Below are positions 17,424 through 39,107 of a stretch of DNA of 64,000 nt, piece by piece (position 1 is the stretch's first letter; each line of letters starts with the position of its first letter). Source of the DNA: Sphingomonadales bacterium (lineage in GTDB: Bacteria > Pseudomonadota > Alphaproteobacteria > Sphingomonadales > Sphingomonadaceae); assembly GCA_027486895.1 (NCBI GenBank), contig JAIXOE010000019.1, positions 62,001-126,000 of the forward strand, written 5' to 3'. The notes under the pieces were generated by a model. It did no database searches. It was not told the origin of the DNA and saw only the letters and a program-made list of their open reading frames with translations. Made by a program: the position numbers and the translations under genes.

Positions 17424-18059
17424 TCAGAGCCGGCGCCCTGCCCAGACCACCCGGCCGACAACAGTTACAGTTGCGCCGTCAACATCTGGCCAGTCAGGAT
17501 AGTTCGGGTTGTCAGAAAGCACCGAAAGCCGACCGCGCGGGCCCTTCGCGAGACGTTTAACCATCAACACATCGTCAAGCCGGATAACATGTATGCCATC
17601 ACGCACCGCTTGGGCAGAGGCGCGGTTGTCGACCATGATATCATCGCCATGGCTGAGTGTGGGCGACATCGATTCACCATCAACGCGGATGAGAGAGAGC
17701 TTCGCCGGATCAAGCCCCATCCTCCGCAGCCACTTTTCATCAAAACCGATCTTGCCGGCAAGCGCTTCTCCATCATGGATAGCGCCCGCACCGGCAGAAG
17801 CGCCGACAGCCAATTTCGGAATGAGGCGAATCCCTGAAGTCACCTCAGCGGCTGACGATTTGCCAAGCAACGCCTCATCGACTCCAAAATATCGCGCCAA
17901 TATGCCCCGCTCGGTTTCGGGCAATTTTTTGGGTGTACCTCGCTTTATAAACTGCTGAATATACGCCGAATTTCGACCTACAAGCTTCGACAAGCCAGCG
18001 AAATCATCACCGCTTTCCAAAATGAGCCGCTCCAAAGCAGCTCTTGGCTCTTCCTCCAT
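17424..18059 (-). CDS. S24-family LexA/CI-like autocleaving repressor
   Basis: A 211-residue regulator with an N-terminal HTH (about residues 18-58, FAGLSKLVGRNSAYIQQFI) and a C-terminal S24 peptidase domain. The catalytic Ser is in VDGESMSP (Ser130) and the Lys in VLMVKRLAKG (Lys168); an Ala-Gly pair at 89-90 in VGASAGAG is a plausible LexA/CI-type self-cleavage site. ATG 18059 is favoured over ATG 18065 because GGAGGG at 18066-18071 abuts the latter but is six bases from the former. It is divergent from a Cro-sized HTH gene, with palindromes and an SOS box in between. No other phage genes are seen nearby. Confidence 0.88.
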   Translation of the reverse strand: MEEEPRAALERLILESGDDFAGLSKLVGRNSAYIQQFIKRGTPKKLPETERGILARYFGVDEALLGKSSAAEVTSGIRLIPKLAVGASAGAGAIHDGEALAGKIGFDEKWLRRMGLDPAKLSLIRVDGESMSPTLSHGDDIMVDNRASAQAVRDGIHVIRLDDVLMVKRLAKGPRGRLSVLSDNPNYPDWPDVDGATVTVVGRVVWAGRRL

Positions 18060-18086
18060 CGTCATCCCTCCGGTTCGGTTGGAAAT

Positions 18087-18117
18087 ATCCTAGACTTGTA
18101 GGATTTATCCTATCAAG
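18087..18117. promoter_or_regulatory. Overlapping palindromic operators between the S24 repressor and HTH genes
   Basis: ATCCTA-GACTTG-TAGGAT (18087-18104) is a perfect 6-bp inverted repeat with a 6-base spacer. It overlaps a second, longer imperfect palindrome, CTTGTAGGAT-TT-ATCCTATCAAG (18095-18117). The TAGGAT half-site thus occurs three times in alternating orientation. Location 28 bases from the repressor start suggests autoregulation; binding is inferred. Confidence 0.6.
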
Positions 18118-18120
18118 TTT

Positions 18121-18135
18121 GTTCTATATTTGTTC
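18121..18135. promoter_or_regulatory. SOS box (GTTC-N7-GTTC)
   Basis: GTTC TATATTT GTTC matches exactly the alphaproteobacterial LexA consensus GTTC-N7-GTTC. It is embedded in a perfect 9-bp direct repeat TTTGTTCTA at 18118-18126 and 18129-18137 (period 11, one helical turn). It lies 47 bases before the HTH gene start at 18183 and 61 bases from the S24 repressor start. Confidence 0.7.
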
Positions 18136-18182
18136 TAACTGATTCGGGCAAGCTAATCCGGGTCGATCTTGGAGGAGACGTT

Positions 18183-18386
18183 ATGCACATCAAGCGCCTG
18201 ATTGAACGGTTTCTGCGTGATGAGGGCCTACCTCCAACCAAGTTTGGACGCTTGGCAGCGCGTGATCCTCGACTCGTGCTCGACATCAGAATGGGGCGTG
18301 AAATCCGACCCGAAATGGAGGAAAAGCTGAGGGAATTTATGGGCAGCTACAGCGGGAAATCAGACGCGCAAACGAGTGAACGATGA
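18183..18386 (+). CDS. Small Cro-like HTH protein
   Basis: A 67-residue protein made of a single predicted helix-turn-helix: LPPTKFGRLAARDPRLVLDI with FGR-A-DP-L spacing as in XRE/Cro-like domains, then GREIRPEMEEKLREFM. GGAGGAG at about 18171-18177 gives a strong ribosome binding site for ATG 18183. It is divergent from the S24 repressor and shares its operator/SOS box region; its stop overlaps the next start (ATGA). Function as a DNA-binding antagonist is inferred from size, fold and position. Confidence 0.75.
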   Translation: MHIKRLIERFLRDEGLPPTKFGRLAARDPRLVLDIRMGREIRPEMEEKLREFMGSYSGKSDAQTSER

Positions 18387-18688
18387 TGATGTACCAAACA
18401 TCGTCCCGTCAGCTTGTTCGCGCGCTTCAGGCTTTAATGCCCACGGCAATCATCGCCATATTGCATGAACGCCCTTGGCATAGCCTTACATTTTGCGGAG
18501 CCCAAACATGTCTTTCCGTTATGTTGCCTGAAAACGCCGAACAACTGCGTTCGACCATCGCACGGCAGCTAGAAGACCATGAATTTTCTCTGCCGGGTCA
18601 GTTGGTGGCAGACATCGCTATAACAGAGACAGCGATACTCGACGGCAAATACCGCCTGATTGTGGACGCGCTATTGCTAGATGACTAG
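18383..18688 (+). CDS. Unknown 101-residue protein, cotranscribed with the Cro-like gene
   Basis: Not recognised. The protein starts at three successive ATG codons (18383, 18386, 18389), the first overlapping the upstream stop. It is soluble by composition, with two Cys near residue 40 (FCGAQTCLS), a Leu-rich first third and an acidic end LLLDD. Its stop overlaps the convergent gene at 18685 by four bases (CTAG). Its place behind an SOS box suggests DNA-damage induction. Confidence 0.7.
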   Translation: MMMYQTSSRQLVRALQALMPTAIIAILHERPWHSLTFCGAQTCLSVMLPENAEQLRSTIARQLEDHEFSLPGQLVADIAITETAILDGKYRLIVDALLLDD

Positions 18689-37157: not shown

Positions 37158-39107
37158 ATGATGAACGACGAACAGGAACCGAAAAGCAACCCGATGCTGC
37201 GTAACATGGCCATCTGGTCAGCAATCATTGTGGCGCTTCTACTCGTCGCCTCGATTTTCAGCGGTTCATCTGCGCCGACCAACGGCATCACCTATTCGTC
37301 ATTCCGCGACAAGGTTGAAGCGGGCGAAGTCAAATCTGTTGCCGTCTCGCCTGATCGTATCAGCGGCAAACTTCAAAATGACGAAACGTTCGTCACCGTG
37401 CCGCTTCCAAATGATTCTAGCCTCCCTCCATTGCTCCTTGAAAAGGGCGTAGTGGTCGAAGCGAAAGCAGAAGAACAACCAAGCCTGCTGCTGATCCTCG
37501 TGTATCAGGCACTGCCATTCCTGCTCATCTTGGGCATCGCGTTCTTCGTTTTGCGTCAAATGCAGAAGGGCGGCGGCGCTGGCGGAGCCATGGGCTTTGG
37601 CAAGTCGAAAGCCAAGCTGCTGACGGAAAAGCATGGCAAGGTCACTTTCGAAGATGTGGCCGGTATTGATGAAGCGCGTGAAGAGCTTCAGGAAATCGTC
37701 GAGTTTTTGAAGGATCCGCATAAGTTCAGCCGTCTGGGTGGGAAAATTCCAAAGGGCGCATTGCTTGTTGGTTCGCCAGGCACAGGTAAGACGTTGCTCG
37801 CACGCGCTATTGCGGGTGAAGCAGGCGTTCCATTCTTCTCGATTTCAGGATCGGACTTCGTTGAAATGTTCGTCGGCGTTGGCGCAAGCCGCGTGCGCGA
37901 TATGTTTGAACAGGCCAAGAAGAACGCACCATGCATCGTCTTCATCGACGAAATTGACGCTGTCGGACGCAGCCGTGGCGCTGGCCTTGGCAACCAGAAT
38001 GACGAGCGCGAACAGACGCTGAACCAGCTTCTGGTCGAAATGGATGGCTTTGAGGCAAATGAAGGCATCATCATCGTTGCCGCCACGAACCGGCCTGACG
38101 TACTTGACCCTGCCCTACTTCGTCCAGGTCGCTTCGACCGTCAGGTTGTCGTGCCTCGGCCAGACATTGATGGCCGCGTGAAGATACTCGAAGTGCATAT
38201 GAAGAAAGTGCCATTGGCACCTGATGTTGATGGCCGAGTTATCGCACGCGGTACGCCCGGCTTCTCCGGCGCTGACCTCGCAAACCTCGTGAACGAAGCT
38301 GCCTTGTTGGCTGCACGCCGCGGCAAGCGCCTCGTTGCCATGCGCGAATTTGAGGACGCCAAAGACAAGGTGATGATGGGCACAGAACGCAAGTCCATGG
38401 TCATGACCGAAGACGAAAAGAAGATGACCGCGTATCATGAAGCTGGACACGCGCTTGTTTCAATCCATGAAGCAGCATCGGATCCAATCCATAAAGCGAC
38501 GATCATACCGCGCGGCCGCGCGCTGGGGATGGTCATGCGTTTGCCGGAGCGTGATAACTACAGCTACCACCGCGACAAAATGCACGCCAACCTCTCGGTG
38601 TCGATGGGTGGCCGCGTGGCAGAAGAGTTGATCTTCGGTTACGAAAAAGTCAGCTCAGGCGCGTCAAGCGATATCCAATATGCCACCAGCCTTGCGCGTG
38701 ACATGGTTACCCAGTGGGGCATGTCAGACGAGATGGGCCCGCTGCAATATGAAGAGCGGCAGGAAGGTTATCTTGGCTACGGCTCATCGCAGCGATCGGC
38801 CATGTCAGACGAAACAGCGCGAAAGATTGACGCTGAAATCCGGAAACTGGTCGAGGGCGGACATAAGCGTGCGACGGACCTTTTGAAGAAGCACGACAAG
38901 CAGCTCCATCTTTTGGCAAATGCGCTGTTGGAATTCGAAACGCTGTCCGGCGATGAGATCAAGCAGCTGCTTGAAACCGGCAAGTTCGAACGTGATGATG
39001 GCAAGGTTGCCCAGCCGTCATCCATCCCGACCGTTGGTACAGCCATTCCAAAGGCAGGTCGTCGCAAATCTTCCCCAGTAGGTGACGTAACGCCGCAAGG
39101 CGCCTAA
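37158..39107 (+). CDS. ftsH: ATP-dependent zinc metalloprotease FtsH
   Basis: A 649-residue membrane AAA protease. Two membrane helices flank the periplasmic domain (about residues 17-35 and 113-135); Walker A SPGTGKT at about 206-212, Walker B FIDEID, second region of homology, and the zinc site HEAGH at 427-431. It degrades misfolded membrane and regulatory proteins, e.g. LpxC. The start is ATG 37158 or 37161 behind AAGG at 37149; no upstream signal supports a longer protein. Confidence 0.97.

Follow-up and report, generated by a model that had tools for sequence, protein, structure and literature searches.

Why does a regulatory switch of the phage CI/Cro type sit among housekeeping genes in a bacterial genome, and what does it control? 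The question is raised by three genes within a 64,000-nucleotide stretch of DNA (the whole stretch analysed, here called the window). The original prediction, a reading of the sequence alone, had seen in them either a domesticated phage-type switch wired to the SOS response or the last trace of an integrated element.

Layout of the locus

The three genes, referred to as the trio, encode an S24 repressor, a small helix-turn-helix (HTH) protein and a third protein, THR (Table 1). The reading frames are as first described: the HTH gene is divergent from the S24 gene and coupled to the THR gene, which it overlaps by 4 bases (ATGA). A divergent repressor and a Cro-sized HTH gene around a shared operator region make up the CI/Cro layout. 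Domain and PHROG searches of six flanking ORFs detected no phage structural or integration gene, in agreement with the claim that phage genes are absent from either side; two of these housekeeping ORFs (MAPEG and MBL-fold) do match PHROG families, but none of the structural or integration kind.

Table 1. Features of the trio locus, in window coordinates
Feature	Position	Strand	Basis
S24/LexA-CI-type repressor, 213 aa, with Ser, Lys and Ala-Gly as in self-cleaving repressors	17424-18065	-	PF00717, PHROG 4, conserved catalytic residues
Operator, inverted repeat TCCTA-N6-TAGGA (TCCTAGACTTGTAGGA); family form TCCTAGACAAGTAGGA	18088-18103		sequence and family comparison
Possible third half-site ATCCTA beside the operator	18107-18112		sequence; candidate half-site
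SOS (LexA) box GTTCTATATTTGTTC, alphaproteobacterial type GTTC-N7-GTTC	18121-18135	+	pattern match; same kind of box before lexA
HTH protein, 67 aa, Cro-sized	18183-18386	+	matches in 110 of 119 family genomes; structure model; insertions in relatives
THR, 101 aa, start overlapping the HTH stop (ATGA), predicted tail-terminator-like fold	18383-18688	+	family search, structure model, VIA-align

The closest known systems include the CI-type S24 switches of temperate phages. Over its whole length, the S24 repressor is 32-33% identical to the repressors of two of them, those from Rhodobacter phage RcapNL and Pseudomonas phage MP22, and in such switches, as here, a Cro-sized HTH gene lies divergently across the operator. 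Unlike the phage switches, the trio lies outside a prophage, has an additional LexA box, is retained throughout the window's family, and carries in its operon a protein with a predicted tail-terminator fold.

The trio in related genomes

Several samples of relatives were compared. Of 119 genomes of the window's family, evenly drawn, 112 have a match to the S24 protein, 110 to the HTH protein and 87 to THR, which evolves fast. The THR figure comes from a single-sequence search; a THR profile also detected the protein in one genome (G091) that is absent from the single-sequence matches listed. From 93 family loci, 64 non-redundant S24/HTH intergenic regions were extracted, and in 60 of these 64 pairs THR adjoins the HTH gene (by profile, part of the loci having been fetched through THR). 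A second sample was taken from named GTDB genomes in a scan that used THR; it consists of the best 80 loci of 293 relatives, all picked by THR, and includes Erythrobacter, Qipengyuania, Croceicoccus and Citromicrobium. The whole trio is found in 74 of these best 80 loci. Two of the other six are cut by contig ends, three have insertions between operator and HTH gene, and one is without a recognisable HTH gene. It had been proposed to check whether the genes stay together in relatives or occur singly; in both samples they stay together.

The S24 repressor

The S24 protein matches PF00717 (Peptidase_S24; 5.6e-16) and, over residues 11-212, PHROG 4, "transcriptional repressor" (7.6e-37), a match that covers the repressor-type N-terminus. 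The Ala-Gly pair (residues 91-92), Ser132 and Lys170 are all found in the window's protein, as had been claimed, and they are conserved across 151 relatives, 73 of them from the family set and 78 from the named set. All 151 have the Ala, Gly and Ser, and the Lys is kept in 149 (73/73 family, 76/78 named), the other two being gaps. By its domain, its N-terminus and its catalytic residues, the protein belongs with the LexA/CI-type repressors, and self-cleavage is predicted.

The sole promoter-like match of the region (18116-18087, minus strand) is not above chance. It runs leftward through the operator, and so the repressor may control its own gene.

The operator and the SOS box

Both elements that had been claimed for the intergenic region, a palindrome and an exact SOS box, are present. 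The string CCTAGACAAGT is kept in 73 of the 74 named trio loci and in 54 of the 64 family regions; for TCCTA-N6-TAGGA the figures are 71/74 and 54/64. We infer that the inverted repeat is bound by the S24 protein. In the whole of the window's own genome it occurs in two places, the operator and a position immediately after a gene read as a peptidyl-prolyl isomerase. This one further site is not operator-like, and a wider S24 regulon was rejected on that ground and on the copy number in the family. The family form of the operator (at most one mismatch) is present in 84 of the 119 family genomes, and in a larger family draw the operator site is found in 256 of 347 genomes. Since 82 of those 84 genomes have a single copy, the repressor seems to serve mainly this one locus, and it looks from the sequence comparison like a dedicated regulator.

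Boxes of the form GTTC-N7-GTTC are expected 1.75 times by chance in the 64-kb window and two were found, so that the single box of the locus is weak evidence when taken alone. The second exact match, at 38010-38024 on the minus strand, is what chance predicts. Of the 74 named trio loci, 44 contain an exact SOS box, whereas 200 dinucleotide shuffles gave 0.365 on average and never more than 3. The distance to the operator string is exactly 24 nt for each of the 44 boxes, and each reads GAAC-N7-GAAC. This number of boxes at one spacing, set against a shuffle mean of 0.4, is the reason for accepting the SOS box as real. The box of the window differs from the 44 in reading GTTC and in lying 32 nt from the operator. 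Exact boxes are also present in 22 of the 64 family regions; they are absent from 42 of the 64 family regions and 30 of the 74 named loci. A second repressor operator that would replace the SOS box, which the alignments had suggested, was rejected, as its strict pattern occurs in 3 of 64 family regions (all of them box-less) and in none of the 74 named loci. In the window's own genome, the gene read as lexA (L001) is preceded by two boxes of this kind. By the LexA box in its promoter region, the trio would be a member of the SOS regulon, and induction by DNA damage is predicted.

The HTH protein

No Pfam, NCBIfam or PHROG family was matched by the HTH protein. Its predicted structure (pLDDT 84) has weak fold matches: the best row is a ribosome-bound chain (E 0.46), with no row below that value, and HipB comes next (0.52). 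The 434 repressor and 434 Cro are also among these weak matches, with TM of about 0.6. The possibility that the protein is a relative of the N-terminal domain of the S24 repressor was rejected, as a profile comparison showed no relation. In a class-wide draw, the HTH domain was matched in 25 of 289 genomes, four of them in the window's family. Of the 16 loci examined from outside the family, at least 5 have the HTH gene facing an S24 gene. In four genomes outside the family (G192, G301, G401 and G403; loci L160, L164, L165 and L170), the domain appears as two adjoining matches in one open frame.

The third protein and its fold

The THR sequence gives little to go on. Its sole family row in the Pfam, NCBIfam and PHROG searches is an NCBIfam match at chance level (E 0.023), far under the cut-off, and no Pfam, PHROG or PDB sequence match names a terminator. 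The AlphaFold2 model, made from 44 sequences, is a confident alpha-beta-beta-alpha-beta-beta fold (pLDDT 84.3, pTM 0.71). A Foldseek search of the PDB with this model returned nothing below E 0.001, although most of the rows at the top are tail terminators or neck parts related to them. VIA-align was then run on 998 chains from the Foldseek rows. The top 12 by Z (8.7-10.8) are tail-terminator, cap, neck, connector or GTA chains, and the alignments to them cover 92-98 of the 101 residues of THR. Individual Z values are 10.8 (Listeria antigen B, a monocin part), 10.4 (monocin cap), 10.3 (the GTA particle chain 6tba_4A), 9.9 (T5 p142), 9.3 (a SaPI1 neck chain), 8.8 (lambda gpU) and 8.4 (Mu). Among unrelated chains, collagenases reach 8.7 and ribosomal S6 variants 8.2. 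Against viral predicted structures, the THR model matches a tail completion protein with an E of 5.7e-5.

Together, the model and the alignments provide good support for the view that THR likely has a tail-terminator fold. Its function is a separate matter, since proteins that share a fold need not share a function. The predicted fold is common to THR and to phage tail terminators (lambda gpU, T5 p142, the monocin cap protein, 6tba_4A); unlike them, THR has no sequence match to the group, lies outside a structural gene cluster and stands behind an SOS box.

Relatives of THR are also carried by phages. In a set of phage contigs (L379-L386, L251, L274 and L276), they lie upstream of terminase genes; some of these contigs have an HNH gene downstream of the THR relative, and some have an HTH relative. 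One HNH and one terminase domain were confirmed among them. Since such relatives occur in phages, near terminase genes, THR can also live in a phage.

Insertion of Mu-like prophages into the operon

When viral contigs were searched with the HTH alignment, 37 gave a match, several of them with the trio bordering a Mu-like phage. In G505 and G499, the S24 gene, the operator and the HTH gene are on one side of a phage of about 38-40 kb and THR is on the other. In G026, a single contig taken as circular, the trio is split likewise by a phage of about 36 kb. The transposase of this phage has Mu transposase and Mu DNA-binding domains, and its portal protein belongs to the Mu portal family; a minor head protein and a DNA transposition protein are also encoded. 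When compared with phage records, the transposase matches distant phages only, the best at 30% identity over part of the protein. The transposase is present in 6 of the 347 family genomes, and three of these (G026, G526 and G661) have the phage within the trio. In G099, the transposase-bearing phage is on a different contig from the trio; in G680, the trio is absent within the 80 kb fetched around the phage; and G711 is a fragment, with no trio on the contig of the better transposase match.

Five of the exact junctions have 5-bp target duplications: GCCAA (G026), ATCGA (G526), TCGAG (G661), CAGCG (G509) and CCGAA (G499); no target duplication was found at the G505 junctions. An identical junction string occurs in G510 and G526, which probably contain the same prophage. 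A second route, through the portal protein, gave 38 portal-bearing viral contigs, of which 13 have pieces of the trio at a phage end. Both query contigs are counted among the 13, as is at least one pair of near-identical contigs (L319/L320). The 38 contigs were scanned at the portal-side end only, save L310 and L312, and most of the others seem to be trimmed at the phage end. Three Mu-like phages (L310, L311 and L312, from G501, G499 and G500, respectively) have an internal, weaker HTH-domain match, which was not counted as trio.

The distance from the operator to the phage end could be measured in 12 insertions. At the start of the HTH gene, where Mu-like prophages enter within the first codons, it is 86, 88, 109, 111 and 118 bp; at the HTH end or the THR start it is 292, 310, 313, 315, 317, 317 and 366 bp. 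The operator and the first third of THR thus bracket all 12 insertions, which fall in zones of 86-118 or 292-366 bp. These cases were chosen because operator and phage end were on the same piece, so that the intact operator in all 12 is not an independent observation. The position of the insertions implies that loss of the promoter-linked THR is common to all of them; the HTH gene is intact in several. A further insertion (L327) lies in the middle of the HTH gene. Both orientations of the phage are seen. In addition, an IS1595-type transposase with passenger genes lies between operator and HTH gene in L199 (the same as G104 and L358), L202 and L229, with the IS1595 domains confirmed in L202 and L229, and the spot therefore attracts more than phages. 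That the trio operon is an insertion hotspot for Mu-like prophages is well supported; estimates of what random insertion would give presuppose independent events and a target of 1 kb, and they indicate orders of magnitude only. Both the hotspot and the tail-terminator fold of THR, which came from genome and structure comparison, go beyond what the original prediction had read from the sequence.

The possibility that THR is a copy of the inserted phages' own terminator was rejected, as no significant match was found in two of those prophages.

A similar hotspot has been described in Citromicrobium. According to the available part of the report on the Mu-like phage phiA (PMC12486242), all 24 lysogens, parental and newly made, had the phage in a single unnamed hypothetical gene, within a zone of 40 bp, while replicative transposition of phiA was chromosome-wide. 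As far as that text goes, the likeness to the insertions seen here consists in a Mu-like phage, a related host and a very narrow zone within a hypothetical gene. Since host group, phage type and zone width agree, the target of phiA is suspected to be the HTH gene of the trio, which by this analogy is a guess. The Citromicrobium loci of the named sample (L223 and L243) are not among the six incomplete trios.

A possible SOS-released anti-phage module

The explanation put first here, and put tentatively, is that the trio is an SOS-released anti-phage module that would act on tail assembly and is silenced by prophage insertion. A self-cleaving S24 repressor would sit on its dedicated operator between its own gene and the HTH-THR operon, and LexA, through the SOS box, would be a second lock in many species including that of the window. 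Upon DNA damage, both locks would be lifted by the RecA filament, and the HTH protein and THR would be released. The HTH protein probably acts on the switch in the manner of Cro. THR would interfere with the assembly of tails of a resident or incoming phage, such that few virions leave the damaged or infected cell, and Mu-like prophages would escape by inserting into the HTH gene or the start of THR, which cuts THR off from its promoter. A fuller version, which must be considered doubtful, is that of a family-wide, SOS-triggered anti-prophage module in which a mimic of the tail terminator caps or poisons tails and in which transposable phages have evolved a targeted integration that breaks the module.

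The conservation of the trio, the operator and the SOS box, the fold of THR and the repeated insertions are consistent with the module, and a precedent is provided by Tab. In the portion of the work available (PMC10884400), Tab is a small protein that blocks the tail assembly of Mu-like phages via the tape measure. A second tail-directed defence, Tai, acts on the central tail fibre according to the available text of PMC11364771. By these descriptions, THR would resemble Tab and Tai as a small protein acting on phage tails, its own action being proposed. The genomic places are also comparable, as far as described in PMC10884400, in that the Tab gene sits between terminase genes and phage-borne relatives of THR lie upstream of them. 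The word "terminator" is absent from the main texts on Tab (PMC10884400) and Tai (PMC11364771). No sequence family supports a defence role for THR or the trio, a PADLOC search without a match included, and among the titles and abstract openings listed by literature searches no paper on the trio was found. Other observations weigh against the module as well: the insertion zones are narrow, exact SOS boxes are absent from many trio loci, an insertion in the trio is seen in only three of the six transposase-bearing genomes, and phages themselves carry relatives of THR.

The insertions can also be read from the side of the phage. It is possible, if somewhat doubtful, that the trio is an SOS switch with some other cellular job and that Mu-like phages use it as a safe target, THR having no part in defence; the integration machinery would then prefer the spot through DNA shape, transcription or an operator-bound protein. 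Zones this narrow are explained at least as well by a transposition machinery that chooses its target as by selection for the loss of THR. The occurrence of both phage orientations, the IS1595-type elements between operator and HTH gene in three named loci, and the 40-bp zone used by phiA in 24 lysogens of Citromicrobium (PMC12486242, as far as available) point the same way. Against this reading, there are two separate zones in different hosts with one shared outcome, the loss of promoter-linked THR, and the predicted fold of a phage tail part would be an odd coincidence in a protein with an unrelated job.

If the anti-phage module is real, the defence would act on virion assembly and be set off when prophages are induced, not when a phage enters the cell, and the targeted insertion of prophages would be a visible counter-measure to it. 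It might also explain why a Mu-like phage, which is expected to insert at random, always hit one short zone in Citromicrobium. Even without a defence role, a transposable phage with a narrow target in an SOS-linked operon is unusual, and it can be tested in culturable Citromicrobium and Qipengyuania.

A possible relation to gene transfer agents

The presence of 6tba_4A among the best fold matches of THR (Z 10.3) raises another possibility, namely that THR serves a GTA or other phage-like particle of the host as a spare or regulatory tail terminator under SOS control, the S24/HTH pair being its switch. The logic would be comparable to that of RogA, which the available text of PMC9632790 describes as a LexA-like repressor of gafYZ and the GTA genes in Caulobacter that is without catalytic residues. 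Compared by that description, RogA and the S24 protein are alike in being chromosomal S24-type repressors with a phage-derived output. They differ in that RogA lacks the catalytic residues and targets gafYZ, whereas Ser, Lys and Ala-Gly are conserved in the S24 protein of the trio, and this difference, together with the absence of a structural gene among the six flanking ORFs tested, makes a GTA role unlikely.

By distribution, an identity of the two small proteins with GafY and GafZ seems doubtful: THR was found in 5 of 385 genomes of a class-wide draw, all five in the window's family, and homologs of GafZ are said, in the available text of PMC9632790, to be spread over the alphaproteobacteria.

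Selection and neighbourhood

For pairs with dS of 0.1-0.9, the median dN/dS is 0.33 for S24, 0.30 for HTH and 0.40 for THR, and the highest values of single pairs are 0.78, 1.33 and 0.86, respectively. By these estimates, the genes of the trio are under purifying selection. Of 20 neighbourhoods of 16-18 kb, 9 contain a relative of the MBL-fold gene, 8 one of plsX (presumably the gene that gives the FA_synthesis match) and 6 one of the MAPEG gene; the neighbourhood is therefore only partly shared between genera.

That the trio is what remains of an old prophage in decay, serving no function now, is very improbable: its repressor and THR have phage-like relatives or folds, and related S24 repressors and relatives of THR are indeed carried by phages, but retention throughout the family, purifying selection, a conserved operator and a partly shared neighbourhood strongly disfavour decay. 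Of the two possibilities in the original prediction, the remnant of an integrated element is not supported, in view of the selection and the neighbourhood, and the domesticated phage-type switch wired to SOS gains from the conserved genes, operator and catalytic residues and from the positioned LexA box. The switch itself is well supported, and on comparative grounds the trio is a resident, vertically kept, predicted SOS switch, not a prophage remnant.

A second S24/HTH pair

The window's own genome has a second divergent S24/HTH pair, at about 11009-11909 of contig C42 (L002), which is among the four family pairs without THR. Its S24 protein is 50% identical to that of the window, and it has a similar operator and an exact SOS box. 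The pair lies downstream of an AAA_30 gene with a TraI_2B match just under the cut-off, read as a conjugative relaxase, and the same switch may also be carried by mobile elements.
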